DNA of 64,000 nucleotides from Desulfosarcinaceae bacterium (lineage in GTDB: Bacteria; Desulfobacterota; Desulfobacteria; Desulfobacterales; Desulfosarcinaceae): NCBI GenBank assembly GCA_030066015.1, contig JASJCL010000038.1, forward strand, positions 1 through 64,000, given 5' to 3'. Position 1 is the first letter of the stretch, and every line of letters begins with the position of its first letter. The notes under the pieces were generated by a model that was given only the letters and a program-made list of their open reading frames with translations, did not search any database and had not been told where the DNA came from. Positions 6,449-27,547 of this stretch are shown one piece after another. A program made the position numbers and the translations under genes.

Positions 6449-6962
6449 TGATCAAACCGGCGAACTGGCAAGTTCTCCGCGGTCCACCGCACATCGTTTC
6501 CATGTGCCGCCTTCCCCGCTGCACCTTCTCACTGACCATCTGCAGGGGGCCCGGGCGCGGCGCTGAATCAACTGCTTCAGAACAGATGCGATTCGGGAGC
6601 CTTCGCTCCAGTGGTCGAACGGCAATTCCCGAAGGGATGGACATTTGGTGAAAGGGCCTCCGGGCTGTCCCCACTCTCAAGCGATGTAATTCGATTGGCA
6701 TGCGACGGTACATTCACCCCTACAGGCCCCCCATGTGCCCGATCCTGGTGGCGACCCCCCGCTTCCAGGCCCCCCGCCGTGATACCCGGGGCGGCCCTGT
6801 GAACCGTCCGCGGATCCATCTGCACGACGCGCGCGTGGCGGTTGCGGATTTGGGGGCACCGCGGCCGCCCCCATGGGCCAAGCGAATCACCTGTTGGAAT
6901 TGGTATACGTAACGGCATTAACCTGGGCACCCCAGTGGTGTCTCATAACCGAGGGACAAGGA
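6449..6962 (+). other. Long untranslated leader upstream of hdrA
   Basis: About 510 bases without a convincing gene. Short open frames are present but lack good start signals and family resemblance. The region is GC-rich after 6500 and has no recognisable riboswitch. The hdrA ribosome binding site (GAGGGACAAGGA) ends it. An additional sigma70 promoter close to hdrA cannot be excluded. Confidence 0.5.
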
Positions 6963-9900
6963 ATGGATTCCAAGACAGACGCTGCAAAACCAAAAGAGGG
7001 CGTGGGTTCGGTAATGGTGGTCGGCGGTGGTATCGCCGGCATTCAGGCCGCCCTGGATCTGGCGGACTCCGGCTATCTGGTACAGATGGTGGAGAGCAAG
7101 AGCGCCATCGGCGGGGTCATGGCCCAGCTGGACAAGACCTTTCCCACCAACGACTGCTCCATGTGTGTCATCTCCCCCAAACTGGTGGAGGCTGGCCGCC
7201 ATCTCAACATTGACCTGCACACCCTCAGCGAGGTCACCCAGGTCACCGGCGAGCCGGGCAATTTCGAGGTGACCATCACCAAGCAACCGCGTTTCATCGA
7301 CCTGGAGAAGTGCACTGCCTGCGGTGAGTGCGCCAAGGTCTGCCCCATCGGCGTGGACAACCAGTTTGACGAGAATCTGCGTGAGCGCAAGGCGGCTTTC
7401 AAGCTCTATCCCCAGGGGATGCCCAGCGGCTACACCATCGACAAGAAGGGCACCGCCCCCTGTAAGGCCACCTGTCCGGCCCACGTGAGCATCCAGGGCT
7501 ACATCGCCCTCATCAACGATGGCCGCTATCAAGAGGCCCTCAAGCTCTTCCGCGACGCCCATCCCTTCCCGGCGGTCTGCGGCCGCGTCTGCCATCATCC
7601 CTGTGAAGAGGCGTGCAGCAGAGGCGACGTGGACCAACCCCTGGCGATCCGTGAACTGCACCGTTTCCTCCACGACTACGCCCGCGAACACGGCGAGGAG
7701 CTGCCCATCGAGACCGCCGAAAAGCGCGCCGAGAAGGTGGCCGTCATCGGTTCGGGTCCGGCCGGCCTCTCCGCCGCCTATTTCCTCGTGCGGGAGGGAT
7801 TCCAGGTCACCATCTTTGAGAAACTGGACGAGCCCGGCGGCATGATGCGGGTGGGCATCCCCGAGTACCGGCTGCCCCGCGACATCCTCAGCGAGGAGAT
7901 CGCCTTTATCGAGCAGCTCGGGGTGACCATCAAGACCGGGGTCACCTTCGGCAGCGACATCACCCTCGACACCCTCAAGGCCGACGGTTTCGGCGCGGTC
8001 TTCATGGCCGTCGGACTCCATGGCGGCCGCAACCTGGGCGTGGCCAACGAAGATATCGAGGGCGTTCTGCAGGGGGTCGATTTTCTGCGGGACGCCGCCC
8101 TGGGCAAAGAGGTCACCCTCGGCGATGAGGTGCTGGTCGTTGGCGGCGGCAACGTGGCCATAGACGTCGCCCTCACCGCCAAGCGCAAGGGGGCCGAGAA
8201 GGTCACCCTGGTATGCCTCGAGCGACGCGAAGAGATGCCGGCCTGGGAGCACGAGATCGAGGAGGCCCTCGAAGGCGACATCGAGATCGTCAACTCCTTC
8301 GGTCCCAAAGAGTTCTTCATCGACAAGAGCAACCGCGTGTCGGGGATCGAGTTCAAGACGTGTACGGCGGTCTTCGACGAGGAGGGGCGCTTCAATCCCG
8401 CCTACGATGAGAGTGCCTGTACGCCCATGTTCGGCGACACCGTCATTGTGGCCATCGGTCAGAGCACCGACACCACCGGCCTGGCCGAGATGGGCGTGGG
8501 CCTGACGCGCGTGGGCGGGCTCGAGGCCGACCCGGTGACCCTGCAGACCCCCATTCCTGGGGTCTTCGCCGGCGGGGATGCCCATCACGGCCCCAAGTCG
8601 GTTGTCGAAGCGGTGGCGGCCGGCAGGACCGCCGCGGAGAGTATCCGGCGCTACCTGCTGGGCGAAGACCTCCTCGAGGGGCGCGAAGAGAACTGGGAGT
8701 TCGTCAAGCCCGACAATATGATCTACCCCATTCAGAAGCGGGTCCCGGTACGCTGTCTCGACCCCGAGGCGCGCGAGTGCAACTTCCTGGAAGTATCTTA
8801 CGGCTACAACGAGGAGGAGGCCAAAACAGAGGCGGACCGTTGCCTCAAGTGCGGCATCTGTTCCGAGTGCTACCAGTGTGTGGACGCCTGCCTGGCCGAA
8901 GCCGTAGACCACGAGATGACGGTGGAGGAGGTCACGGTCAATGTAGGGTCCATCATCATGGCACCGGGCTTCGAGGCCTACGACCCCAGCCAGCATGACC
9001 ACTACTCTTACGCCAAACACCCCAACGTGGTCACCAGCTTGGAGTTTGAGCGTCTGCTCTCCGCCTCCGGTCCCAACCAGGGGCACTTGATCCGCCCATC
9101 GGACCACAAGGAGCCCGAGAAGATCGCTTGGCTGCAGTGCATCGGTTCCCGCGACATCAACAAATGCGACCACAGCTACTGCTCCAATGTGTGCTGCATG
9201 TACGCCGCCAAACAGACCGTTATCGCCAAGGAGCATTGCGACTACGAGCTGGACACGGCCATTTTCTACATGGATATGCGCACCCACGGCAAGGAGTTCG
9301 AGCGCTACTACATGCGGGCCGAAGAGGAGCGCGGCGTGCGCTTCGTCCGCACGCGGGTGCATACCATCGACCCCGCCGCCGACGATCAGCTCAGCCTGCG
9401 GTACGTCACCGAGGACGGTGATATCGTGGACGAGCTCTTCGACATGGTGGTCCTTTCGGTGGGCCTCAGCCCCATGAAAGATGCCGTCAAACTGGCCGAC
9501 ACCCTGGGCATCGCCCTGAACGATCACCAGTTCGCCGACACCAAGAGCTTGACTCCGGTGGCCTCCAGCCGCGAAGGGATATTTGTCTGCGGCGCCTTCC
9601 AGGGCCCCAAGGATATCCCCCAGTCGGTGATGGAGGCCTCGGCCGCGGCCTCATCGGCCACCAAAGCCCTCGCCGACGCCCGCGGGACCATGATCCGCAC
9701 CAAACAGCTGCCGCCGGAGCTGGATGTCAGCGAAGAGGATCCGCGCATCGGTGTGTTTGTCTGCAACTGCGGCATCAATATCGGCGGCGTGGCCGATGTG
9801 CCCGCGGTCAGGGAGTACGCCAAGACCCTGCCGTACGTGGTGCATGTGGAAGACAACCTCTTCACCTGTTCACAAGATACCCAGGACAAGATGAAAGAGG

Positions 9901-11420
9901 TGATCCTGGAGAACAACCTCAACCGGGTCGTGGTGGCCTCCTGTTCGCCGCGCACCCACGAGCCCCTCTTCCAGGAGACGATCCGGGAGGCGGGTCTCAA
10001 CAAGTACCTCTTCGAGATGGCCAACATCCGCGACCAGAACACCTGGGTGCACATGAACAATCCCGATCTGGCCACGGCCAAGGCCAAGGACCTGGTGCGC
10101 ATGGCGATTGCCAAGGCCGCCTATGTGGAGCCGCTGCATCAGGTGAGCATGGACGTCAACGGCGCGGCCCTGGTGGTGGGTGGCGGTGTGGCCGGTATGG
10201 AAGCCGCCCTGGGGGTGGCTGAACAAGGCTATAAAGCCTACCTGGTGGAGCGGGGCGATCAGCTCGGCGGCAACGCCCTCTGGATGAAGGAGAGCTGGGA
10301 TGGAGAAGCCATCGGACCCTATGTCGAAGGTCTGATCGAAAAGATCCGCCAGCATCCGAACGTGCGGATCTTCTTCAATACGGAGGCCATTGAAACCGCC
10401 GGTATCCTGGGGAATTTCACCACCACCCTGGCCACTGGCGGAGGGACCATGACCACCACCGTGGTGGAGCATGGCGCCACCATTCTGGCCACCGGCGGCA
10501 AGGAGTACAAGCCAACCGAGTATCTCTACGGCGAACACCCCGACGTGCTCACGCACAAGGACTTCGATGAAGCCCTGGCCGCGGGAGACGAGCGAATCGA
10601 AGCCGCCGAGACAGTGGCCTTTGTCCAGTGTGTGGGATCGCGCATTCCGGAACGGCCTTCCTGCAGCCGGGTCTGCTGCACCCACAGCCTCAAGTCGGCC
10701 ATCAAGCTTAAAACGGCCAAACCCGACATGAGCGTCTTCATCCTCTACCGTGACATGCGCTCCTACGGCTTCCGCGAAGACCTGTACAAGCAGGCCCGCG
10801 AAGTGGGGGTGATCTTCACCCGCTATGACCTCGACAAACTGCCCACGGCGACACTGGACGACGACAATCGTCTGACCCTCACGGTGCGGGACCACGTGCT
10901 CGGCCGGCCGGTGGCCTTCAATCCCGACCTGCTGGTTCTGGCGGCGGCCGTTCTGCCCAACGAGAACCAGGATCTCTTCGAGCTGTTCAAGGTGCCGATC
11001 AACGGCGAAGGCTTCCTGGTGGAGGCTCACGCCAAGCTGCGACCGGTGGACTTTGCTTCCGAAGGGGTGTTCATGGCCGGGTTGGCCCACTACCCCAAGA
11101 GTATCGACGAAACCATCGCCCAGGCCCAGGCGGCCGTCTCCCGGGCGGTAACGGTGCTCAGCAAGGACGCCATTCTGGTGGGCGGTGTGGTGGCCGAGGT
11201 CAACCCAGACCGCTGCGCCGTCTGCCTGACCTGTGTACGCACCTGTCCTTACAACACCCCCTACATCGGCGAAGAGGGCTACGCCGTGATCGAACCGTCC
11301 GGCTGTCATGGCTGCGGCTGCTGTGTGGCCGAGTGCCCCGGCAAGGCGATCACCCTCAAGCACTTCACCGATGAGCAGTTGATCGCTAAAACCGGTGCGC
11401 TCTTTACCGAGTGCGCTTAA
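6963..11420 (+). CDS. HdrA-GltD-HdrA fusion, putative electron-bifurcating flavoprotein
   Basis: A 1485-residue protein starting at ATG 6963 behind GAGGGACAAGGA; an in-frame ATG at 6873 has no such site. Domains in order: HdrA-type FAD fold (GGGIAG, about 20), HdrA ferredoxin cysteines (CTACGECAKVCP, about 117), a complete GltD/NfnB-like unit (Fe-S part CKATCP and CGRVCHHPCEEAC about 165-230, FAD GSGPAG about 260, NAD(P) site GGGNVA about 392), ferredoxin-like CLKCGICSEC (about 627), remaining HdrA fold, HdrA start-like motif VFVCNCGINIGG (about 930), a second HdrA FAD fold (GGGVAG about 1072), and two C-terminal 4Fe-4S motifs (about 1417-1465). HdrA proteins bifurcate electrons from flavin; GltD-type modules exchange electrons with NAD(P)H. 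The neighbours MvhD and MetVF suggest a soluble complex linking NAD(P)H, ferredoxin and methylene-THF reduction or its reverse. Confidence 0.9.
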   Translation: MDSKTDAAKPKEGVGSVMVVGGGIAGIQAALDLADSGYLVQMVESKSAIGGVMAQLDKTFPTNDCSMCVISPKLVEAGRHLNIDLHTLSEVTQVTGEPGNFEVTITKQPRFIDLEKCTACGECAKVCPIGVDNQFDENLRERKAAFKLYPQGMPSGYTIDKKGTAPCKATCPAHVSIQGYIALINDGRYQEALKLFRDAHPFPAVCGRVCHHPCEEACSRGDVDQPLAIRELHRFLHDYAREHGEELPIETAEKRAEKVAVIGSGPAGLSAAYFLVREGFQVTIFEKLDEPGGMMRVGIPEYRLPRDILSEEIAFIEQLGVTIKTGVTFGSDITLDTLKADGFGAVFMAVGLHGGRNLGVANEDIEGVLQGVDFLRDAALGKEVTLGDEVLVVGGGNVAIDVALTAKRKGAEKVTLVCLERREEMPAWEHEIEEALEGDIEIVNSFGPKEFFIDKSNRVSGIEFKTCTAVFDEEGRFNPAYDESACTPMFGDTVIVAIGQSTDTTGLAEMGVGLTRVGGLEADPVTLQTPIPGVFAGGDAHHGPKSVVEAVAAGRTAAESIRRYLLGEDLLEGREENWEFVKPDNMIYPIQKRVPVRCLDPEARECNFLEVSYGYNEEEAKTEADRCLKCGICSECYQCVDACLAEAVDHEMTVEEVTVNVGSIIMAPGFEAYDPSQHDHYSYAKHPNVVTSLEFERLLSASGPNQGHLIRPSDHKEPEKIAWLQCIGSRDINKCDHSYCSNVCCMYAAKQTVIAKEHCDYELDTAIFYMDMRTHGKEFERYYMRAEEERGVRFVRTRVHTIDPAADDQLSLRYVTEDGDIVDELFDMVVLSVGLSPMKDAVKLADTLGIALNDHQFADTKSLTPVASSREGIFVCGAFQGPKDIPQSVMEASAAASSATKALADARGTMIRTKQLPPELDVSEEDPRIGVFVCNCGINIGGVADVPAVREYAKTLPYVVHVEDNLFTCSQDTQDKMKEVILENNLNRVVVASCSPRTHEPLFQETIREAGLNKYLFEMANIRDQNTWVHMNNPDLATAKAKDLVRMAIAKAAYVEPLHQVSMDVNGAALVVGGGVAGMEAALGVAEQGYKAYLVERGDQLGGNALWMKESWDGEAIGPYVEGLIEKIRQHPNVRIFFNTEAIETAGILGNFTTTLATGGGTMTTTVVEHGATILATGGKEYKPTEYLYGEHPDVLTHKDFDEALAAGDERIEAAETVAFVQCVGSRIPERPSCSRVCCTHSLKSAIKLKTAKPDMSVFILYRDMRSYGFREDLYKQAREVGVIFTRYDLDKLPTATLDDDNRLTLTVRDHVLGRPVAFNPDLLVLAAAVLPNENQDLFELFKVPINGEGFLVEAHAKLRPVDFASEGVFMAGLAHYPKSIDETIAQAQAAVSRAVTVLSKDAILVGGVVAEVNPDRCAVCLTCVRTCPYNTPYIGEEGYAVIEPSGCHGCGCCVAECPGKAITLKHFTDEQLIAKTGALFTECA

Positions 11421-11431
11421 GTCTAATGATG

Positions 11432-11457
11432 GCCCAAGGAGGCACGCCTCCTTGGGC
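11432..11457 (+). other. Perfect 12-bp hairpin between hdrA and mvhD
   Basis: GCCCAAGGAGGC and its exact complement are separated by 2 bases (AC), 11 bases after the hdrA stop. There is no T-run after it, so a classical terminator is unlikely. It may be an RNA processing or stability element that sets different levels of hdrA and mvhD message. Confidence 0.55.
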
Positions 11458-11481
11458 TCGGACGAAAGGAAGAGGTAACCC

Positions 11482-11907
11482 ATGAGCGATGCATATGAAC
11501 CGCAAGTACTGGCATTCTGCTGTAAGTATTGCGCCTATGCCGCCGGTGACCTGGCCGGATCCATGCGCCTGTCATATCCGGCCAATGTCAAGGTCGTGCA
11601 GGTACCTTGTTCAGGGCGCGTAGATATCCTCCACATGCTCAAAGCGATCGAGGACGGGGCCGACGCGCTATACGTGGCCGGCTGACTGGAGGGTGAATGC
11701 CATTTCCTGGAAGGAAATCTTAAAACCCGCCGTAAAGTCGAATATGTCCAGCGCACCCTCAAGGAGTTGGGGATGGAGCCCGAACGCGTGCAGATGTACA
11801 ACCTCAGCTCGGCCCAGGGGCCCCGTTTCGCCGAGATCGCGGAAGAGATGACGGCCAAGGCGAAAGAGTTGGGACCAAGCCCGCTGAATCCAGGAACCTG
11901 TGCTTGA
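11482..11907 (+). CDS. mvhD: MvhD-type electron-transfer subunit, selenoprotein (UGA = Sec68)
   Basis: Read with the UGA at 11683-11685 as selenocysteine, the gene gives a 141-residue MvhD/VhuD protein ending at the TGA at 11905. MvhD carries a [2Fe-2S] cluster and passes electrons to HdrA. Before the UGA lie the family cysteines (FCCKYCAYAAGD, PCSGRVD); after it the frame continues as family-typical LEGECHFLEGN, and family members usually have Cys at the Sec position (VAGC-LEGEC). Methanogen VhuD is a known selenoprotein. A hairpin of SECIS form follows the UGA. The start at 11482 has AGGAAGAGG. Gene order hdrA, mvhD, metV, metF resembles the acetogen MetFV-Hdr-MvhD complex. A normal gene caller would report only a truncated 67-residue product. 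Confidence 0.9.
11702..11718 (+). promoter_or_regulatory. Bacterial SECIS hairpin of mvhD
   Basis: ATTTCC and GGAAAT form a perfect 6-bp stem around the loop TGGAA. The stem begins 17 bases after the UGA, and the loop G at 11709 lies 24 bases after it. Known bacterial SECIS elements are hairpins just 3' of the UGA with a G among the first two loop bases; this fits. It lies within the coding sequence. Confidence 0.75.
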
Positions 11908-11914
11908 TCCAAAT

Positions 11915-11990
11915 GGCGATAAGAATCCCCTTGGCGTGCCGATTTGACTGGCACCGACGCACGGTGACGTAAAAAATATCGCCAAGGGAT
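11915..11990 (+). ncRNA. Possible structured RNA between mvhD and metV
   Basis: GGCGATA (11915) can pair with TATCGCC (11977). Alternatively ATCCCCTTGGCG (11925-11936) can pair with CGCCAAGGGAT (11980-11990) with one bulge. The two pairings exclude each other. Inside are two small hairpins, TGCC/GGCA and CACCG/CGGTG. This looks like a branched, switch-like fold. I do not recognise a known riboswitch class, and no covariation evidence is available. Confidence 0.35.
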
Positions 11991-12064
11991 CATCTGGGTG
12001 AAGCAAATAGCGAAGAAATGATCAAAGAAGTTCTTTTCGACAATAATACTTCAAGAGGTGAGAG

Positions 12065-12733
12065 ATGATAATTGCCGATCGAAAACCCCTGGAGGAGATC
12101 CTCGAGATGATCGCCGACGTGGACAATATCATGCTCGTCGGCTGCAAGGGGTGTGTCACGGTGTGCAACGTGGGTGGCTTGAAAGAGGTCCAGATCCTCT
12201 CTTCGTCCCTCAAGATTGCCCGCAAGAAAGCCGACCGTCCCCTCCAGATCGAAGAAGTACTGCTGGAACGCCAGTGCGACCCCGAGTATATCGAGCAGAT
12301 CCGCGACACCTACGACCGATATGATGCCGTGCTTTCCATGGCCTGCGGCGTCGGGCCCCAGTTCCTCTCCGAAGCATACCCCGGTCAGCGCTTCTTCCCC
12401 ACGGTCAACACCAAGTTTATGGGGGGCGCGGTAACCCACGGGATCTGGGAGGAGCGCTGTGCCGGCTGCGGTACCTGCGTTATCCATCATTATGACGGGT
12501 TATGTCCCATAGCGCGCTGTTCCAAGAGTCTGTTGCACGGCCCCTGCGGTGGCAGCGCCGACGGTAAATGCGAAGTCTCCCAGGAGATCGTTTGTATCTG
12601 GGACAAGATCGTCCTGAAGAAGATGGAACAGGGGCGCCTGGAAGACCTGCGCACCTTCAAACCGGCCAAGGACTGGCGTTCGGCCCGAGACGGTGGCCCA
12701 CGCACAAGCATTAGGGAGGAGTTGGTGCAATGA
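12065..12733 (+). CDS. metV: MetV, iron-sulfur/zinc subunit of methylene-THF reductase
   Basis: A 222-residue protein of the MetV (methylenetetrahydrofolate reductase C-terminal) family. The N-terminal half has the typical GCKGCVTVCNVGG motif; the C-terminal half has a cysteine-rich cluster (CAGCGTC, CPIARC, GPCGG, CEV) that binds Fe-S or zinc. MetV pairs with MetF in acetogens and many anaerobes and allows the flavoprotein to take electrons from partner complexes instead of free NADH. The start at 12065 follows AGAGGTGAG. The stop overlaps the metF start (ATGA), so the two are translationally coupled. It is separated from mvhD by 157 bases that can form an RNA structure. Confidence 0.9.
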   Translation: MIIADRKPLEEILEMIADVDNIMLVGCKGCVTVCNVGGLKEVQILSSSLKIARKKADRPLQIEEVLLERQCDPEYIEQIRDTYDRYDAVLSMACGVGPQFLSEAYPGQRFFPTVNTKFMGGAVTHGIWEERCAGCGTCVIHHYDGLCPIARCSKSLLHGPCGGSADGKCEVSQEIVCIWDKIVLKKMEQGRLEDLRTFKPAKDWRSARDGGPRTSIREELVQ

Positions 12734-13668
12734 GCGAAAACGGCTACAAATCAGGCAGCAATCTCGAAAAAGTTCTCGAAGCCGGTCACTTTGCCTTCAC
12801 CGGCGAGTGCGGCCCCCCCAAGGGGGCCAACGTAGAGCATCTCAAGGAGAAGATGGAACACCTGCGCGGCCAGGTGGACGCCATCAACGTCACCGACAAT
12901 CAGACCGCTGTGGTGCGCATGTCCAGCGCCGCCGCCAGTGCCATTATGGTGCAGGCCGGTCTGGAGCCCAACTTTCAGATGGTTTGCCGCGACCGCAACC
13001 GTCTGGCCATGCAGGCGGACATCCTGGGGGCCTACTCCATGGGGATCCGCAACATGCTCTGCCTCTCGGGTGACCACCAGCATTTCGGCAACCATCCCCA
13101 GAGCAAGAACGTTTACGATATCGACAGCATGCAGCTCATCGCCATGGTGAAGAAAATGCGCGACGAGGGCAAATTTCTCAATGATGAAGATATCGACGAA
13201 TCACCCAAAATGTTTATCGGCGCAGCGGCAAATCCCTTCGCCGATCCGGTAGAGTTCCGCATCTATCGGCTGGCCAGTAAGATCGACGCCGGGGCGGACT
13301 TTATCCAGACCCAGTGCATCTACAACATGCCGCGATTCCGAGAGTTCATGAAGAAAGCGGTGGACATGGGGCTGACCGAAAATGCCTACATTCTCGCCGG
13401 GGTAACCCCCATGAAGAGCGCCCGCATGGCCAAATATATGGCCAAATTTGTACCCGGCATGGATGTGCCCGAAGCGTTGATCAAGCGCTTGGAGGGCGCC
13501 GGAAAGGGCAAGCAAGCCGAGGAGGGGATCCGTTTCGCCATCGAACAGATCGACGAATTCAAGGAGATGGCGGGCGTCGCCGGCGTGCACCTGATGGCCA
13601 TCGAGTGGGAGCACAAGGTGCCCGAAATCGCCGAACGGGCAGGCGTACTGCCGCGACCGCAAGTGTGA
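12730..13668 (+). CDS. metF: MetF, methylene-tetrahydrofolate reductase
   Basis: A 312-residue flavin TIM-barrel enzyme that interconverts 5,10-methylene-THF and 5-methyl-THF in the methyl branch of the Wood-Ljungdahl pathway. Family features are an early acidic motif (FTGECGPP, with the Glu in the usual catalytic position), the folate/FAD segment INVTDNQ, the region LCLSGDH, IGAAANPF, and FIQTQCIYN. The ATG overlaps the metV stop by 4 bases, and GGAGGAG precedes it. Together with MetV, the MvhD selenoprotein and the HdrA fusion it should form an NAD(P)H- or ferredoxin-coupled complex; in sulfate reducers that oxidise acetate or CO it may run in either direction. Confidence 0.93.
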   Translation: MSENGYKSGSNLEKVLEAGHFAFTGECGPPKGANVEHLKEKMEHLRGQVDAINVTDNQTAVVRMSSAAASAIMVQAGLEPNFQMVCRDRNRLAMQADILGAYSMGIRNMLCLSGDHQHFGNHPQSKNVYDIDSMQLIAMVKKMRDEGKFLNDEDIDESPKMFIGAAANPFADPVEFRIYRLASKIDAGADFIQTQCIYNMPRFREFMKKAVDMGLTENAYILAGVTPMKSARMAKYMAKFVPGMDVPEALIKRLEGAGKGKQAEEGIRFAIEQIDEFKEMAGVAGVHLMAIEWEHKVPEIAERAGVLPRPQV

Positions 13669-19481: not shown

Positions 19482-20074
19482 CGCGCCTCGTGCGCCGGTG
19501 GCCGGACCCCATCCCGCGACCGCCCCTTCCGCTCCCCGTTCTCGCCCTACACCCGCCCTGCGGTTTCCGCGCTTCGCTCAGATCGCGATCAGCACTTTCC
19601 GCCCGTACCCGGGCGGCACCCAGAGCCCTTCTCTGCCGTCACCCATGCACGCCGACCGCCTTGGCTTCTGTCAGGCCCTCCCAACCCATCTCACAGTCTG
19701 GGACAGAACCCGCACATTTTTAATAATAACTATAATAACTAAAATAAATAAAAATTGAGCAAGGGTTATTGGGGGCGTTTCCGGCAGGTGTCGTACAGGG
19801 CGCTTAATTTATTGAAGTTATTTGTGTGCGTTCGTCCGTCTAAGCGATGGCTTTGACCCGCCAGGTGTATATGCGTGGGAATAATTTTTCAGATTTTTCT
19901 GATTTTTTTGTTGACTTCTGCCGATCTATTGTGTCTGCTGAATTCAACACCCCCAGTTCCGGCACCGGCGCGCCACTACCGCTCTCGGTGATCGACCCCC
20001 TTCGATACCCGTCCCGCTGTCGATACTGGTGGAAGCTCCCCTTCGGAACCTCATCAAACCAAGGAGGTGAACAT
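19482..20074. other. AT-rich regulatory gap before the HTH-receiver gene
   Basis: Nearly 600 bases. An AT-rich run lies at about 19718-19757 and another at 19880-19910, unlike the GC-rich flanks, suggesting promoter and upstream elements. TTGACT at 19911 is a possible -35, with no good -10. A reading frame in phase with the next gene runs through here from 19847 but lacks a plausible start and shows no domain. Confidence 0.4.
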
Positions 20075-20647
20075 ATGGATGACACCCTGACGGTCTACAA
20101 GGCCAGCCAGATGTGCAAGGTTTCTTCCAAGTCGATCATTAATTGGATCGAAGCCGGCCACATCAAGGCGTACAAGACGGTGGGCGGTCACCGTCGCATC
20201 AAGCGGGCCGATCTCGAAGATTTCATGCGGCGCCAGGGAATTCCCATCCCGGCCGAGGAGACCGGCGCCAACGGCCGCAAACGGATCCTGGTGGTGGATG
20301 ACGACCCCATCATTGTGGAAACCATCGTGCAGAGCCTCGAGGAGGATGAGAACGACTATGAGGTGATCAGTGCGGGGGACGGCTTCGAGGCCGGCCTGCA
20401 GGTCAACCATTTCAAACCGGACCTCATGATTCTCGATATCATGATGCCCGACATCAAGGGCAACGAGGTGTGCCGCAAGATCAAGTGCACCCCCGAAACC
20501 TGTGACACCAAGATCATCGTGCTATCCGCCTATCTGGACGAGGAGAAGTTCGCCGAGATGAAGAAGTTCGGGGCCGATGTCTGTTTCTCCAAGCCCCTGC
20601 CGCTGCCCCAGCTCAAGAAAGAGGTGGCCCGTCTATTGGCGACCTGA
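20075..20647 (+). CDS. HTH-receiver protein (excisionase/MerR-type HTH followed by REC)
   Basis: A 190-residue regulator with an unusual order: an N-terminal winged helix-turn-helix of the excisionase/MerR type (about residues 5-50, VYKASQMCKVSSKSIINWIE and the wing TVGGHRRIKR) and then a receiver domain (about 68-190; VVDDDP, phospho-Asp in MILDIMMP, Ser in VLSAY, Lys in SKPLP). The start at 20075 has an ideal ribosome binding site, AAGGAGGTGA. It sits 76 bases before the second MetF-like gene and is a good candidate for local control of that module (inference). Confidence 0.88.
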   Translation: MDDTLTVYKASQMCKVSSKSIINWIEAGHIKAYKTVGGHRRIKRADLEDFMRRQGIPIPAEETGANGRKRILVVDDDPIIVETIVQSLEEDENDYEVISAGDGFEAGLQVNHFKPDLMILDIMMPDIKGNEVCRKIKCTPETCDTKIIVLSAYLDEEKFAEMKKFGADVCFSKPLPLPQLKKEVARLLAT

Positions 20648-20723: not shown

Positions 20724-21602
20724 ATGAAACTCAAGGATGCGCTGGGCAGCAAGCGCTTTGTGGTCACGTCTGAAATCCAGGCCCCCCTGGGCGACATCTC
20801 CCCGGAGGAGATGGTGTCGTCGCTTCGGCGGGTCCGGGGCCGCGTGGATGGGGTCGCCGTACTGGATGCCGAACTGGAGGGGATCGTGGGCGACAGCATC
20901 CACACCTGTGAGCTGCTCACCCAGAATCAGTTCAACGCCATCTACCAGACCACCACCCGCGACAAGAACCGCATTCAGCTTCAGCAGGATCTTCTCCAAG
21001 CCCACGACGCCGGTGTGGACAACGTGCTGGTCTTTACCGAGGACTACCGCATCAGCGGCGACAGTCTCCAGGAGGAGCTCTTCTTCCACGTGGACTCCGG
21101 CAAACTGGGCTCCGTTCTCGATCACACCCGCGACGGCCGGACCGTGGACGGGGGAGAGCTGGAAGCGCCCCTCGATTTCACCCTCGGTTCGGGGGTGGAG
21201 AGCCCCTGGGGCAGGCCGGTACCCAAGCCGGGCATGCTGGCCCTCGAGACAATGGTCAGCATGGGGACGGGCTATTTTCTTACCACCCCCATCTTCGACC
21301 TGGACCAGTTCCGGCGCTTCATGGAACAGGTGAACACCTTCGGGACACCCGTCATCGCAGAAGTTCTTCTACTCCGCAACGCGCCCATGGCACGCTTCAT
21401 CAACCGCCATTTCAGGGCGGGTATGGTGCCCGAGTGGGTGGTCCAAAAACTGGCCAAAGCCCCGGATAAAAAACGCGCCAGCATCGAGCTCTTCGCCGAT
21501 CTGGTCAAAGGCCTCAGGGAGCTCTGCCAAGGGGTTCACATCATCACCCTGGGGGGAGAGGACAAGCTGCAGCCCTACTTGGACGCGGCCAATCTCAGAT
21601 AG
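20724..21602 (+). CDS. MetF-like protein (methylene-THF reductase family)
   Basis: A 292-residue TIM-barrel protein related to MetF but clearly divergent from the metF at 12730. It begins KRFVVTSEIQAPLGD, with Glu in the usual position, and continues with NAIYQTTTRDKNRIQLQQDL and DNVLVFTEDY, which match the folate/flavin region. The middle FLTTPIFDL and VIAEVLLLRNAPMARF are family-like. There is no MetV beside it. The following HdrC-HdrB selenoprotein and HdrA fusion suggest it is the folate-side component of a second redox complex, or that it acts on another pterin or C1 carrier. The start is clear (GAGAGGAGGTCAAC). Confidence 0.82.
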   Translation: MKLKDALGSKRFVVTSEIQAPLGDISPEEMVSSLRRVRGRVDGVAVLDAELEGIVGDSIHTCELLTQNQFNAIYQTTTRDKNRIQLQQDLLQAHDAGVDNVLVFTEDYRISGDSLQEELFFHVDSGKLGSVLDHTRDGRTVDGGELEAPLDFTLGSGVESPWGRPVPKPGMLALETMVSMGTGYFLTTPIFDLDQFRRFMEQVNTFGTPVIAEVLLLRNAPMARFINRHFRAGMVPEWVVQKLAKAPDKKRASIELFADLVKGLRELCQGVHIITLGGEDKLQPYLDAANLR

Positions 21603-21788
21603 GCATGCGGATCGGGTCACTGCCAAACATCGACGCGGCATCTCGCACTGATTGAGCGTTTCTCCTGCACCGCCGCCCCCCGAACCCTCCGGCGCTGGCC
21701 CTAGGAGCCACATGCCCCGTTATCAACCGGCGCTCGGCCGGGCGCTCGCCCCCGGTCGTCCGCCCCGCTATCGGAGGAGGTAAGTCTC

Positions 21789-23075
21789 ATGGCATCCGTC
21801 ATCGAACTGGATGATCTGGATCGTGCCTTTCACGACACGGTCTCGGAGCGCCTGCCCCAGGCCAACTTCGACCTGTGCCTCACCTGCGGTACCTGTGCGG
21901 GTGGTTGCCCAGCATCGGCCCAATTCGATATGGACCCCCGCAAGCTGGTGCGCATGCTGGCCTACGGCCTGGACGAGGAGGTCAAAAAGACCCCTTGGGC
22001 CTGGGTCTGCACCATGTGCGCCCGCTGCTACTGGTCCTGTCCCATGAAAGTGGATATTCCCAAGCTGGTCTATCAGATGCGGCAGAGCTGGCCCCGCGAC
22101 AAACGTCCCAAGGGGATCCGTGGCTCCTGCGACCAGCACATTCGCGCCGGCAACGCCATGGGCGTCCCCACCGAGGACTTCATTTGGACGGTGGAAGATG
22201 TGGCCGAAGAGATCCGCGAAACCGATCCCAGATTCAAGGATATGCATGTGACGGTGGACCGCAAGGGCGCCAAGATGGCCATCAACCAGAATTCCCGCGA
22301 GCCGGTCACCGAACCGGACGAGCTGGGGCCCCTGTGGAAGATCCTGCACATCGTGGAGGCCGACTGGACCTACCCCTCGGTGATGTGGGCCGGCGAGAAC
22401 TACTGCCTCTTCCTGGCCGATGACGAGGGGTGGCGCTACATTCTGGAGGAGTTCGTCCAGCACATCGACAACAACCTGGGCTGCGAGACCGTCGTCAACA
22501 CCGAGTGAGGGCACAGCTACTTTGCGATCCTGGAAGGATTGCGCAAGTACAACATTCCCCACAACTTCGAATTCACCACCATCATCCAGCTCTACGCCAA
22601 GTGGATTCGCTCGGGCAAGCTCCCCGTATCGTCCGATTGGAACCGTGACCTCCAGGTCAAGTTCACCATCCAAGACCCCTGCAACATCGTTCGCAAGACC
22701 CTGCGTCACGAGATGGCCGATGAACTGCGCTTCGTCTGCAAATCCATCATCGGGGAGGAGAACCTGGTGGACATGGTGCCCTGCGGCAGCAACAACTACT
22801 GCTGCGGCGGCGGCGGCGGGGCCCTCCAAGGGGGGTATACCGAACAGCGGCGGGCCTACGGTAAGGTCAAGTTCGATCAGATCCAGGAGACCGAGGCCAC
22901 CTATGTCATCGCCCCTTGCCACAACTGCCACACCCAGATCGAGGATATCGGCAAGCACTATGGCGGCAACTACCACGTGGTCCACATTTGGACCCTCATG
23001 TGCCTGGCCATGGGCGTCCTGGGTGAGAACGAACGCACCTACCTGGGACCCGATCTGGAGAACCTGGGTCTGTGA
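21789..23075 (+). CDS. HdrC-HdrB (HdrD-type) heterodisulfide reductase-like selenoprotein (UGA = Sec240)
   Basis: Read through the UGA at 22506-22508 as selenocysteine, this is a 428-residue HdrD-like protein. Residues 30-90 hold two 4Fe-4S motifs (C30xxCxxCxxxC and C-T-M-C-A-R-C near 74); residues 190-420 hold two CCG-type domains. The UGA lies in the first, in the context NTE-U-GHSYFAIL, where relatives have NTECGH. The second CCG domain has DPCN, NYCCGGGGG and APCHNCH, intact. In HdrB/HdrD the CCG cysteines bind the catalytic [4Fe-4S] clusters, so Sec would sit at the active site. A SECIS-like hairpin follows the UGA. The start at 21789 follows GGAGGAGG. It precedes the second HdrA fusion by 38 bases and should hand electrons to or from it. 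Ordinary annotation would split it into two pieces. Confidence 0.9.
22524..22542 (+). promoter_or_regulatory. Bacterial SECIS hairpin of the hdrCB gene
   Basis: GCGATCC and GGATTGC form a 7-bp stem (one G-U pair) around the loop TGGAA. The stem starts 16 bases after the UGA, and the first loop G (22532) is 24 bases after it. Loop sequence and distance are identical to those of mvhD. Confidence 0.75.
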
Positions 23076-23113
23076 AACCGCAATCTCCATGCAGCGAGAG
23101 CGAGGAGGACGTC

Positions 23114-26100
23114 ATGAAGTCAGATGGTAAGACAGGCGCCGTGATGGTGGTAGGCGGCGGCATCTCCGGCATCCAGGCCTCCCTGGATCTGGCCGAGAGT
23201 GGTTTGAAAGTGTATCTGGTCGAACGCCAGGCGGCCATCGGCGGCAAAATGGCCCAGTTGGACAAGACGTTTCCCACCAATGACTGCGCCATGTGTATTA
23301 TCAGTCCCAAGCTGGTGGAGGCGGGCCGCCATCTCAATATCGAGCTGCTGACCCTCACCGAGGTTGAGGGGATCGCCGGCGAACCGGGGAATTTTGAGGT
23401 GACCGTCAAACGGCACCCCCGCTATATCGACACGGAAAAATGCACCGCCTGTGGCGAGTGCGCCAAGGTCTGTCCGGTACCCTTGGCCGACGGTTTCAAT
23501 GAAGGCCTCGACCAACGCCGGGCGGCCTATAAGCAATACCCCCAGGCCATGCCGGGGGCCTACGCCATCGACAAGAAAGGACGTGCCCCTTGCAAGGCGG
23601 GCTGCCCCTTGGGTCCCAGCGTCCAGGGCTGCTTCGCCCTGATCCAACAGGGAGACTACGCCGGTGCCTACCGCCTCTTTCGCCAGGAGCACCCCTTTCC
23701 CGCCATCTGCGGACGGGTCTGTAACCACCCCTGCGAGATCGCCTGCACCCGCGGCGAGCTGGATGAGCCCCTTAGCATCCGTCACATGCACCGTTTTCTA
23801 TCCGACTGGGTTCAGGAAAACGGCATCGAACCGGTGACACCACCCGCCGATAAATTCCCGGAAAAGGTGGCCGTGATCGGTTCGGGCCCCGGCGGTCTGG
23901 CATGCGCCTATTTCCTGGCCCTGAAGGGCTATGCCGTGACGGTTTTTGAGAAGGAAGATACGATCGGCGGCATGCTGACCTTGGGCATCCCGGCCTACCG
24001 CCTGCCGCGCGCCATTATCGATAGCGAAGTCCAGCCCCTGATCGACCTGGGGGTCGTGTTTAAAACCGGGGTCGATATCGGCAAGGACACCACCATCGGT
24101 GACCTGCGCCAGGATGGCTACGGCGCCTTTTTCCTGGCCGTCGGTAGCCAGGAGTGCAAGCTTCTCGGTCTCGAGGGCGAAGATCTGGAAGGTGTCTTGG
24201 GCGGGCTGGACTACCTGCGGCGCGTCAACGCCGGCGAATCGGTGGACCTGGGGGACCGCGTGGCCGTCATCGGAGGCGGCAACGTGGCTATGGACGCCGT
24301 ACGCACCGCTCTGCGGGGCGGGGCCAAGCAGCCTTTCATTCTCTATCGCCGGTCGGAGGCGGAGATGCCGGCCGGTATGGACGAGGTGGCCGAGTGCCGC
24401 GAGGAGGGGATCGAGATCATGCCCCTCACCAATCCCATTGGCATCATTCGCGAAGCGGGGCGCGTAACGGCCATTGAGTGCCAGAAGATGGAACTGGGCG
24501 AGCCGGACGCGAGCGGCCGTCGTCGGCCGGTGCCCATCCCCGGCAGCGAGTTCACCCTGGAGATCGACACCCTCATGCCGTCCATCGGCCAGGAGTCGGA
24601 CTGGGCCTGCCTCACCGACGAGTGCGCCTGCACCCTCAGCGACTGGGGCACTTTGGAGGTCGATGCCCTCACCCTACAGACGGCCGATCCTGACATCTTC
24701 GCCGGCGGCGACGCCGTCACCGGTCCCCGCACCGTGGTGGAGGCGCTGGCCGCCGGTAAGGAGGCCGCCTACTCCATCGAGCGCTTCCTGCAGGGGGAGG
24801 ATCTCAAGGCCGGCCGGGGTGAGCAGCCCCCCCTGGCCGTGGTGGCACTCGGCGACCAGCCCCTCCTGCCCCGACAGAAGATGCCCCTGCGGCCCGGTGC
24901 CGAACGGGTGGGCGATTTCGAAGAGGTCGCCCTGGGCTTTGACGAGGCCCGCATGCAGGCCGAGGCCGAACGCTGTCTGCAGTGCGGTCTGTGCAGCGAG
25001 TGCTACCTCTGCGAGCAGGCCTGTCTGGCCGAGGCGGTCAACCATGCCGAGGCGGTCCGCACCGAAACCCTCCGCGTGGGCGCCATGGTCCTGGCCCCCG
25101 GTTTCAAAGCATTCGACCCCCTGGTCTATGAGAACTACGCTTACGCCCACCACCCCAACGTGGTCACCAGTCTTGAGTTCGAGCGCCTGCTGTCTGCCTC
25201 CGGGCCCAACGAGGGCCATCTGATCCGTCCCACCGATGGCCAGCCCCCCAAGAAAATCGCCTGGCTGCAGTGCGTGGGCTCCCGCGATATCCAGAACTGC
25301 GACAATGCCTACTGCAGTTCCGTATGCTGCATGTACGCCTGCAAACAGGCCGTCATCGCCAAGGAGCACAGCGACGCTCCCCTGGACACGGCCATCTTCT
25401 TCATGGATCTGCGCACCTTCGGCAAGGACTTCGACCGCTACCAGATCAGCAGTATGGAGGACCACGGGGTGCGCTTTGTCCGCTCGCGTATCCACAGCAT
25501 CCTGCCAAAGGGCGATCACGCCCTGCGGATCGTATACGCCACCGAGATGGGCACGCCCGTGGAGGAGGTCTTCGATATGGTGGTGCTCAGTGTGGGACTC
25601 TCGGCCGATCCCGCCGCAGTCAGTCTGGCCGGCCGCCTGGGGATAAACCTCAACGGCTACGGCTTCGTCGAGGGAGAGGACACCGCCCCGACGGCCACCA
25701 ACCGGGAGGGGATCTACGTTTGCGGCGCCTTCAAGGAACCCAAAGACATCCCCTACGCCGTCATGGAGGCCTCGGCCGCGGCGGCACAGGCGGCACGCCC
25801 TCTGGCCGGGGTGCGCTGGTCCCTCACCAGTGAGAAAGAAACGCCCGTCGAGCGCGACATCGCCGCCGAAGCACCCCGCATCGGGGTTTTCGTCTGCAAC
25901 TGCGGGATCAACATCGGCGGTGTGGCCGACGTGCCAGCGGTGCGGGACTACGCCCGGGATCTGCCCCACGTCGTCCACGTGGAGGACAACCTCTTCGCCT
26001 GCAGCCAGGACAATATCGCCCACCTCAAGGAGGTGATTGACGAGCAGGGTCTCAATCGCGTGGTGGTGGCCTCATGTTCGCCGCGTACCCACGAGCCCCT

Positions 26101-27547
26101 CTTCCAGGAGACCATCCGCGAAGCGGGCCTCAACGCCTACCTCTTCGAGATGGCCAACATCCGCGACCAGAACACCTGGGTTCACATGGACCAGCCCGAA
26201 AAAGCCACCGAAAAGGCCAAGGCCTTGGTACGCATGGCGGTGGCCAAGGTGGTGCACCAGCGCCCCCTCTATCCCGTGGAGGTCCCCATCACCCCGGCCG
26301 CCCTGGTGGTGGGGGGCGGGGCTGCCGGCATGGCAGCGGCCCTGGAGCTGGCCGAACAGGGTCCCGAAGTGCATCTGGTGGAGAAGGGCCCGCGTCTGGG
26401 GGGACATCTCAACCAGTTGCAGAGCACCTGGCAGGGCGCCTCGCTGGACGACTATCGCCGCGATCAGGTGGCCCGGATCGAGGCCCACCCCCGCATCCAT
26501 CTCCACCTGGGGGCCGAAGTGACGCGCACCGGTGGCTCACTGGGTCAGTTCTCCACCGAGATCGCCACGGTCGATGGTTCTACCCAGGAGATCACCCATG
26601 CCGTCACCCTCCTGGCGACGGGTGGCGGGGAGTACGTCCCCGAGGAATATCTCTACGGCAAACACCCGCAGGTACTGACCCATCTGGACCTGGATCAGGC
26701 GATGATGCGCGAACCCGAGCGTCTGGAGGGGTTGAAAAGTGTGGTCTTCATCCAGTGTGTGGGATCGCGCAGCGAGGAACGGCCCTATTGCTCCAAGGTC
26801 TGCTGCACCCACAGCCTCAAGGCCGCCCTGGCCCTCAAGCGCAAAAATCCCGCCGCACGGGTGACCATTCTCTACCGGGATATCCGCGCCTATGGTCTCC
26901 GCGAGACCCTCTATCAGGAGTGCCGTCGACAGGGGATTCTGTTCATCCGCTACACCCAAAAACAGCCCCCCAGCGTCGCCATGGCCACCGACGAGACCCT
27001 GCTTCTCACGGTGGTGGACCCCGTCCTGGACCGCCCTGTGCGGATCCGGCCGGATATGCTGGTGCTGGCCGCGGCCATCCTGCCCAACGCCAACCAGAAG
27101 CTCTTCGAACTGTTCAAGGTGCCGGTGAATGCCGCCGGTTTCCTGGTGGAGGCCCACGCCAAGCTGCGGCCGGTGGAGATGGCCAGCGAAGGGGTCTTCC
27201 TGGCCGGCCTGGCCCACTACCCCAAACCGTTGGAGGAGAGCGTTGCCCAGGCGCAAGCCGCCGCTGCCCGGGCCATGACCCTGCTCTCCAAACCCTTCCT
27301 TTTGGCTGGCGGGGTGGTGGCCGAGGTGGAGCGGGGACGTTGTGCCGCCTGTCTCACCTGCGTGCGCACCTGTCCCTACAACATTCCACAGGTGGACGAG
27401 CACAGCCATGCCGTTATCGACCCCGCCCTCTGCCACGGCTGCGGCACCTGTGCGGCCGAATGCCCCGGCAAGGCGATTACCCTGTCGCATTTCACCGATG
27501 ATCAACTGATCGCCAAGGGCGCCGCCCTGGTGTCCAATCCCACCTAA
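23114..27547 (+). CDS. Second HdrA-GltD-HdrA fusion flavoprotein
   Basis: A 1477-residue paralogue of the protein at 6963, collinear over its whole length. It has HdrA FAD (GGGISG about 13), ferredoxin cysteines (CTACGECAKVCP about 112), a GltD unit (CKAGCP about 158, CGRVCNHPCEIAC about 200, FAD GSGPGG about 255, NAD(P) site GGGNVA about 385), CLQCGLCSEC (about 620), VFVCNCGINIGG (about 923), second HdrA FAD (GGGAAG about 1065), and paired C-terminal 4Fe-4S motifs (about 1410-1460). I use ATG 23114, behind GCGAGGAGGAC; an in-frame ATG at 23072 is possible. The upstream HdrC-HdrB selenoprotein supplies the disulfide-reductase side of a classical HdrABC, and the GltD unit supplies NAD(P)H access. 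A strong terminator follows directly. Confidence 0.9.
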   Translation: MKSDGKTGAVMVVGGGISGIQASLDLAESGLKVYLVERQAAIGGKMAQLDKTFPTNDCAMCIISPKLVEAGRHLNIELLTLTEVEGIAGEPGNFEVTVKRHPRYIDTEKCTACGECAKVCPVPLADGFNEGLDQRRAAYKQYPQAMPGAYAIDKKGRAPCKAGCPLGPSVQGCFALIQQGDYAGAYRLFRQEHPFPAICGRVCNHPCEIACTRGELDEPLSIRHMHRFLSDWVQENGIEPVTPPADKFPEKVAVIGSGPGGLACAYFLALKGYAVTVFEKEDTIGGMLTLGIPAYRLPRAIIDSEVQPLIDLGVVFKTGVDIGKDTTIGDLRQDGYGAFFLAVGSQECKLLGLEGEDLEGVLGGLDYLRRVNAGESVDLGDRVAVIGGGNVAMDAVRTALRGGAKQPFILYRRSEAEMPAGMDEVAECREEGIEIMPLTNPIGIIREAGRVTAIECQKMELGEPDASGRRRPVPIPGSEFTLEIDTLMPSIGQESDWACLTDECACTLSDWGTLEVDALTLQTADPDIFAGGDAVTGPRTVVEALAAGKEAAYSIERFLQGEDLKAGRGEQPPLAVVALGDQPLLPRQKMPLRPGAERVGDFEEVALGFDEARMQAEAERCLQCGLCSECYLCEQACLAEAVNHAEAVRTETLRVGAMVLAPGFKAFDPLVYENYAYAHHPNVVTSLEFERLLSASGPNEGHLIRPTDGQPPKKIAWLQCVGSRDIQNCDNAYCSSVCCMYACKQAVIAKEHSDAPLDTAIFFMDLRTFGKDFDRYQISSMEDHGVRFVRSRIHSILPKGDHALRIVYATEMGTPVEEVFDMVVLSVGLSADPAAVSLAGRLGINLNGYGFVEGEDTAPTATNREGIYVCGAFKEPKDIPYAVMEASAAAAQAARPLAGVRWSLTSEKETPVERDIAAEAPRIGVFVCNCGINIGGVADVPAVRDYARDLPHVVHVEDNLFACSQDNIAHLKEVIDEQGLNRVVVASCSPRTHEPLFQETIREAGLNAYLFEMANIRDQNTWVHMDQPEKATEKAKALVRMAVAKVVHQRPLYPVEVPITPAALVVGGGAAGMAAALELAEQGPEVHLVEKGPRLGGHLNQLQSTWQGASLDDYRRDQVARIEAHPRIHLHLGAEVTRTGGSLGQFSTEIATVDGSTQEITHAVTLLATGGGEYVPEEYLYGKHPQVLTHLDLDQAMMREPERLEGLKSVVFIQCVGSRSEERPYCSKVCCTHSLKAALALKRKNPAARVTILYRDIRAYGLRETLYQECRRQGILFIRYTQKQPPSVAMATDETLLLTVVDPVLDRPVRIRPDMLVLAAAILPNANQKLFELFKVPVNAAGFLVEAHAKLRPVEMASEGVFLAGLAHYPKPLEESVAQAQAAAARAMTLLSKPFLLAGGVVAEVERGRCAACLTCVRTCPYNIPQVDEHSHAVIDPALCHGCGTCAAECPGKAITLSHFTDDQLIAKGAALVSNPT

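Follow-up and report, generated by a model that had tools for sequence, protein, structure and literature searches.

Why does a sulfate-reducing bacterium place selenocysteine (Sec) at a single, strictly conserved position in an electron-transfer iron-sulfur protein whose gene lies beside that of a central one-carbon enzyme? The window analyzed here, a stretch of 64,000 nucleotides from a Desulfosarcinaceae bacterium (GenBank assembly GCA_030066015.1, contig JASJCL010000038.1, positions 1 to 64,000), holds such a gene (Table 1). The selenoprotein itself is already known; its interest lies in Sec being apparently all that remains of a lost cluster site. The question of why selenium is used thereby becomes concrete, as Sec occupies the one ligand position still kept by a CCG domain that very probably has no cluster. 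Overall, we lean, with considerable reserve, toward a reading in which this UGH selenoprotein acts in an Hdr-type methylene-THF reductase cluster, carries one cluster in its second CCG domain (CCG2), and uses Sec240 as a redox residue or nucleophile or as a displaceable outer ligand. The names HdrL, MetF2 and EtfD-like are labels of our own.

Table 1. Features of the window, with their positions and the evidence for each.
Feature	Position	Strand	Evidence
HdrL1, the region's second HdrL	6873..11420	+	Pfam/NCBIfam
MvhD with its own in-frame TGA (11683-11685)	11482..11910	+	Pfam FlpD 1.1e-46 when read through
MetV	12065..12733	+	Pfam PF12225, methylene-THF reductase C terminal
MetF1, methylene-THF reductase	12730..13668	+	Pfam MTHFR 1e-43
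HTH/response-regulator fusion just upstream of MetF2	19847..20647	+	Pfam; position conserved
MetF2, divergent methylene-THF reductase-like, directly upstream of the Sec gene	20724..21602	+	Pfam MTHFR 2.5e-18
Sec-containing HdrC-HdrB fusion (HdrD-like, HmcF/TmcB/DsrK-related), 428 aa	21789..23075	+	Open frame, one internal TGA
HdrC-like part, C30, 33, 36, 40, 74, 77, 80, 84; predicted two cubane [4Fe-4S]	21870..22055	+	Pfam Fer4_17/Fer4_8
Degenerate CCG domain 1, about residues 158-262; U240 sole remnant of five canonical Cys	22260..22574	+	Alignment, fold match to EtfD/HdrB
UGA codon = Sec240, motif E-U-G-H (N-T-E-U-G-H)	22506..22508	+	TGA/Cys codons across homologues
Bacterial-type SECIS core stem-loop, 17 nt, GG in apical loop	22525..22541	+	Fold and row comparison
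Complete CCG domain 2, residues 293-384; predicted one noncubane [4Fe-4S]	22665..22940	+	Pfam CCG 2.9e-10
HdrL2, HdrA with inserted glutamate-synthase-like NAD(P)H domain	23072..27547	+	NCBIfam HdrA2 (under cut-off), PRK12771 (over cut-off)

The preliminary description of this locus had read a UGA at 22506 as replacing a Cys of a CCG domain (NTE-U-GH). Within 21789-23075, this codon, at residue 240, and the terminal TGA are the only stops. Read by the standard code, the frame breaks at 22508, as it would if the sequence held an error, if the gene were a pseudogene, or if translation ended there to yield a short, HdrC-only protein. A scan of the sequence collection gave 68 related loci, many of them titled Desulfobacteraceae, Desulfosarcina, Desulfatitalea, Desulfobacula or Desulfotignum, and a tblastn search with the read-through protein aligned 70 regions in these loci and the window (two of them in L065); these are mutually related and stem largely from metagenome-assembled genomes, and the counts are those of sequences, not of events. 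Residue 240 is encoded by TGA in 61 of the 70 regions, among them those of the cultivated Desulfosarcina alkanivorans (L010) and D. widdelii (L017), and by TGC in the other nine, and no further stop was found within their aligned parts. The TGA is therefore not a chance occurrence, the pattern is the ordinary signature of Sec, and the reading of the UGA as standing in place of a CCG-domain Cys is borne out. Sequencing error and pseudogene are rejected on the same 61 of 70 regions; the high conservation downstream of the TGA and the SECIS-type hairpin that follows it, with both-side changes in two pairs, likewise speak against error or termination, which we regard as extremely improbable. A general recoding of TGA is ruled out by the Cys of the homologues and by the other in-frame TGAs of the wider set introduced below, which lie solely at the C-terminal end. 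The same genome holds a second copy of the gene (L158 8468-9763, the same gene as L087), with a TGA at the identical position; tblastn found no relatives of MetF, HdrL or MvhD around it in its 10.5-kb contig.

For broader comparisons, we collected the 143 matches obtained at E 1e-20 with a profile of 24 of the 70 regions (A3), a set that leans to the family of the Sec fusion. Without L087 and one identical sequence it comprises 141 rows; the window's own copy (L086) had been excluded beforehand.

The hairpin starts 19 nt after the U of the UGA (columns 20-36 counted from that U), and the 55-nt stretch after the UGA folds with -18 kcal/mol (z -2.8), a value equalled by one of 200 shuffles. Its stem was compared in 39 of the 61 TGA rows (A1) and in all nine Cys rows (A2). 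Seven pairs and a short apical loop are kept in the 39 TGA rows, and a SECIS-type stem was not found in the nine Cys rows. In two of the pairs, both partners have changed in two rows (L069, which is divergent, and the second L065 copy), and each such pair is broken in one of the 39 rows. The wider comparison, made on a 39-nt stretch in 140 of the 141 rows, agrees: the median minimum free energy is -11.8 in the 103 Sec rows versus -6.6 in the 37 Cys rows, the median z is -2.6 versus 0.13, and z falls below -1.5 in 91 of the 103 Sec rows and in four of the 37 Cys rows. The hairpins of these four Cys rows are possibly remnants, and many distant Sec rows (below about 420 bits) have z values weaker than -1.5. 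A lack of Sec machinery had been named beforehand as a ground for giving up the Sec reading; the genome itself encodes SelA, SelB, SelD and a tRNA-Sec with the anticodon TCA. Sequence comparison thus leaves us nearly certain that Sec is inserted at residue 240. We also observed an in-frame TGA inside the SelD match (L165), which means that SelD is probably a Sec protein itself.

At the domain level the protein is indeed the HdrC-HdrB fusion that it had been taken for, with Pfam Fer4_17/Fer4_8 (4Fe-4S dicluster) at residues 28-89 and Pfam CCG at 293-384. All eight Cys of the HdrC part occur in 69 of the 69 rows with letters there, and the five Cys of CCG2 (C298, C338, C339, C377 and C380) in all 140 wide rows with letters there, which upholds the earlier statement that this CCG domain keeps all its cysteines. 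The best NCBIfam models are HmcF, TmcB and DsrK with 171, 151 and 101 bits; none passes its cut-off (750, 735 and 400). All three score better than the HdrB model TIGR03288, which reaches 25.6 bits at a cut-off of 345.15. An AlphaFold model computed from 24 rows has a pLDDT of 83.4 and a pTM of 0.85. Its best fold match is EtfD (Z 23.2, rmsd 2.8, 367 residues), followed by HdrB chains (Z 19.3-20.3, 242-254 residues), a hypothetical protein of Helicobacter pylori (3kwl, Z 19.1) and LutA (9a6l, Z 19.0); the matches to EtfD and HdrB point to a second, sequence-degenerate CCG domain (CCG1) at about residues 158-262. No DsrK, HmcF or TmcB structure was among the matches listed in our sequence searches of solved structures (in one of them, the best 60 of 85).

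How degenerate is this domain? As yardsticks we used three proteins of the same genome with two CCG stretches each, namely the HdrB-like protein of L093, which reaches 193 bits with TIGR03288 and thus stays under the cut-off of 345, and those of L094 and L095. In all three alignments U240 pairs with the first Cys of the CxxC of CCG1, and the remaining CCG1 Cys pair with S169, A201/G202 and S243 (with G202/E203 for the pair in the HdrB-like row). Column 240, whose lack of conservation as Cys in homologues had been named beforehand as a ground for refutation, is Cys or Sec in 141 of 141 wide rows, and columns 169, 201, 202, 203 and 243 hold no Cys in any of the 141. Because the domain keeps one of five ligands, a noncubane [4Fe-4S] in CCG1 is unlikely; to judge from these alignments, CCG1 very probably has no cluster of its own, and the protein most likely carries one noncubane cluster rather than two. 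Two intact noncubane sites are rejected, as the CCG1 columns besides 240 hold Cys in none of the 141 rows. The preliminary description had pictured a single altered ligand in a two-cluster enzyme, with Sec changing the chemistry of a catalytic cluster. The placement of Sec at a conserved Cys position of a CCG domain stands; the catalytic noncubane site around it is not supported, with four of its five ligands lost. In L092, which is more distantly related and lies outside the wide set, the sequence here is Asp-Pro-His-Ala, with His and no Cys, so that Cys/Sec is not kept across the whole superfamily.

The comparison with EtfD suggests where the residue would lie. In phmmer, E-C-G-H-A of HmcF is paired with T-C-P-H-C of EtfD, which makes the Sec position equivalent to Cys581 and H242 to His583 of EtfD. 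Cys81 of HdrB is presumably the second Cys of the CxxC, which corresponds to position 243 here, a Ser. The HdrB residues described as bridging to the catalytic iron are Cys81 and Cys234 (PMC13083937). On the CCG1 side, EtfD is reported to hold a linear [3Fe-4S] cluster bound by Cys503, 538, 581 and 584, and on the CCG2 side a noncubane cluster with five Cys and His583 as ligands (PMC13083937). We infer that Sec240 is better read as a lone residue near the CCG2 cluster, beside His242, than as part of an altered two-cluster enzyme.

Sec240 could alternatively bind iron directly, either in a modified CCG1 cluster or as an extra ligand that shifts the potential of the CCG2 noncubane cluster. In the three rows from the same genome, after all, position 240 belongs to the complete set of CCG1 Cys, the equivalent Cys581 of EtfD is a cluster ligand (PMC13083937), H242 is close by, and C206, invariant in the two closest classes of relatives (98 of 98 and 11 of 11 rows), could add one ligand. 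Against this, the other canonical CCG1 positions are Cys in none of the 141 rows, C206 sits at a non-canonical position, four residues past that of the lost CC pair, and in the next class (310-480 bits) it is replaced by Gly or Ala in 17 of 17 rows, 15 of them with Sec; direct ligation therefore appears doubtful to us. The same residue brings up a further idea, a selenenylsulfide between Sec240 and C206 that would act as a thioredoxin-like redox pair unrelated to any cluster. The invariance of C206 in the 109 rows of the two closest classes and its place just past the lost CC pair would suit such a pair. Since 15 of the 17 rows of the next class have Sec without C206, however, such a pair cannot generally account for Sec and is rejected in that role; we consider it quite improbable altogether.

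Across the 141 wide rows, the codon of residue 240 is TGA in 104, TGC in 34 and TGT in three. Sec is always accompanied by E239 and H242 (E-U-G-H in 104 of 104 rows), and the 37 Cys rows read E-C-G-H (26), D-C-G-G (8), E-C-A-H (2) or D-C-A-G (1). The nine His-less DCGG/DCAG rows, all with Cys, are L144, L149, L150, L151, L153, L154, L155, L156 and L164. A quick tree was built from the 87 rows left after thinning at 85% identity; 26 of its 84 inner branches are open. On it, parsimony requires Sec and Cys to interchange 14 times, and starred branches force at least nine of these switches. In the phylum, 82 of 297 genomes have members at E 1e-70, the stop positions being read in the fetched rows only.

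The genes around the fusion indicate the process in which it may take part. In the window, they fall into two groups, HdrL1-MvhD-MetV-MetF1 (6873-13668) and MetF2-HdrD-HdrL2 (20724-27547); HdrL2 likely starts at the ATG at 23114. Two HdrL proteins of ~1500 aa are thus encoded in one region, each tied to a different half of the methylene-THF reductase module. MetF2 lies directly upstream of the Sec gene in 57 of 59 Sec loci (cut off in one, absent from one) and HdrL directly downstream in 56 (two cut, one without); MvhD follows in 37 (13 cut, nine without) and MetV in 30 (14 cut, 15 without). The nine Cys loci have MetF2 upstream in two (one cut, six without) and HdrL downstream in six (three without), and two of them, L071 and L072, are Cys forms of the Sec-hdrD gene in the same type of operon. 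The HTH/response-regulator fusion precedes MetF2-hdrD in 56 of the 68 loci (five cut, seven without) and is likely a dedicated regulator. Many more distant relatives also adjoin HdrA and MvhD parts. HdrA, HdrB/C, MvhD, MetV and MetF genes, by which an Hdr-type methylene-THF reductase is recognized, are all found together, and from this gene neighborhood the Sec protein probably belongs to the module of MetF2, hdrD, HdrL, MvhD, MetV and MetF. The TGA within the MvhD gene of the window corresponds to Cys in most homologues. It recurs in six of the 37 other fetched Sec-hdrD operons with a readable MvhD (>50% identity), so the module does not generally require Sec.

These data also bear on whether Sec matters at all, as it might be interchangeable with Cys at a structural or electron-transfer position and be kept by drift. 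Such neutrality would explain the repeated Sec/Cys changes on the tree and the Cys forms L071 and L072 in the same operon. Yet Sec recurs in several classes with a strict E-U-G-H and the hairpin in place, and the contrast in MetF2 between Sec loci (57 of 59) and Cys loci (two of nine), which are related and not independent, points the same way; we find neutrality improbable.

Which of these features are known from other systems? With an in-frame UGA in a U-G-H motif that aligns with Cys in homologues, a SECIS element and Sec machinery, the protein belongs by its sequence to the known UGH Fe-S oxidoreductase selenoproteins (GlpC/HdrD4-like). A 2006 count of the GlpC selenoprotein gave five members and an operon in Deltaproteobacteria (PMC1794560); the protein also appears in a 2007 readthrough list (PMC1914089) and among the Sec proteins of a marine deltaproteobacterium (PMC8318568), and was tabulated in 2026 with the motif UGH in a review that calls its link with its operon partners still unclear (PMC13188914). 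These GlpC proteins share the in-frame UGA, the U-G-H and the proximity to HdrA/FrhD-type genes in Deltaproteobacteria (PMC13188914; PMC1794560), but the reported operon is glpC-hdrA-frhD-frhG-frhA (PMC1794560), as opposed to MetF2-hdrD-hdrL-mvhD-metV-metF here. HdrD4 of Desulfobacterium autotrophicum HRM2 is similar by description, being a soluble, reported Sec protein with HdrC and HdrB domains; the available part of that account gives neither the Sec position nor an analysis of CCG ligands (PMC2702500).

Over most of its length, the protein matches HmcF, TmcB and DsrK best among the NCBIfam models. HmcF and TmcB of the same genome (L088 and L089, over the cut-off) have E-C-G-H-A, and thus the same Cys, at the Sec position of a CCG1 without other Cys; no DsrK was identified among the ten matches in this genome, two of which are named. 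By name, however, these proteins are respiratory-complex subunits, whereas the present one scores far below the curated cut-offs, carries Sec and lies in an HdrL/methylene-THF reductase context. HdrB/HdrD of methanogens share the order of HdrC and HdrB domains and the fold, and the five Cys of CCG2 are present here as there. HdrB, though, is described with two noncubane clusters (PMC13083937), whereas CCG1 here is short of four of five ligands and the TIGR03288 cut-off is missed. EtfD of Mycobacterium smegmatis (9OJN), the best fold match and the one in which a cluster ligand, His583, aligns with His242, differs in that it keeps four CCG1 Cys with their linear [3Fe-4S] and is a membrane protein (PMC13083937).

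The Hdr-type methylene-THF reductase proposed for Moorella and studied in Sporomusa (HdrCBA-MvhD-MetVF) has the same kinds of genes in one cluster, the likeness being one of gene content. The Moorella HdrA is large (162.8 kDa; PMC9430772), as is the HdrA of the window. Compared with these enzymes, HdrC and HdrB are fused here, CCG1 is degenerate with Sec, and there is an extra MetF2. In Sporomusa ovata, pulldowns are reported to show contacts among MetV/MetF, HdrA/HdrB and MvhD, and the rate was not raised by dihydrolipoate or glutathione (PMC9430772). For syntrophic sulfate reducers, metF has been described beside HdrABC in an article whose main text does not contain the word 'selenocysteine' (PMC10553843). 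Judged by titles and abstract openings, we recognized no treatment of Sec in a degenerate CCG domain in the literature, nor, with most matches judged in this way, a Sec form in the MetF2-hdrD-hdrL-mvhD-metV-metF cluster.

In the mechanism that we favour, electrons would pass between the flavin of HdrL, the two cubane clusters of the HdrC part and the one noncubane [4Fe-4S] of CCG2. CCG1 would have lost its cluster and retained Sec240 alone, beside His242, which by homology with EtfD would touch the CCG2 cluster, so that the selenol would point into the cavity of HdrB's second cluster. There, Sec240 might serve as a fast nucleophile or redox residue, or as a displaceable outer ligand, and, jointly with the CCG2 cluster, would make or break a bond of the disulfide type on a thiol partner, for instance a DsrC-like protein or another disulfide; the outcome would be a hybrid selenol/cluster site in place of two clusters. 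The constraint on Cys/Sec240 in all 141 rows, next to CCG1 ligand columns that are otherwise non-Cys, is in favour of this mechanism. Its parts are not equally firm: that the selenol is the redox partner of the CCG2 cluster is quite conceivable, and that it substitutes for a whole cluster, in a hybrid site (with Cys in HmcF/TmcB-type relatives) that in these sulfate reducers ties the methylene-THF reductase to a thiol/disulfide partner, is a more tentative proposal. To our knowledge, no disulfide substrate is known for Hdr-type methylene-THF reductases. The authors of the EtfD work consider its His-ligated cluster non-catalytic (PMC13083937), which favours pure electron transfer over disulfide chemistry. 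If the mechanism is true, the two-cluster, disulfide-cleaving site of heterodisulfide reductase would have been rebuilt as one noncubane [4Fe-4S] that faces a single Sec. As a Sec/noncubane subunit in an Hdr-type methylene-THF reductase operon, the protein would also be a candidate site in the search for the second electron acceptor, which is called unknown for the Moorella enzyme (PMC9430772).

Lastly, one locus (L157 4448-5707, minus strand) encodes an HmcF/TmcB-like protein, with 484 and 440 bits under the respective cut-offs, that has a TGA at the E-C-G-H position; by this sequence, the HmcF/TmcB branch may have acquired Sec as well.
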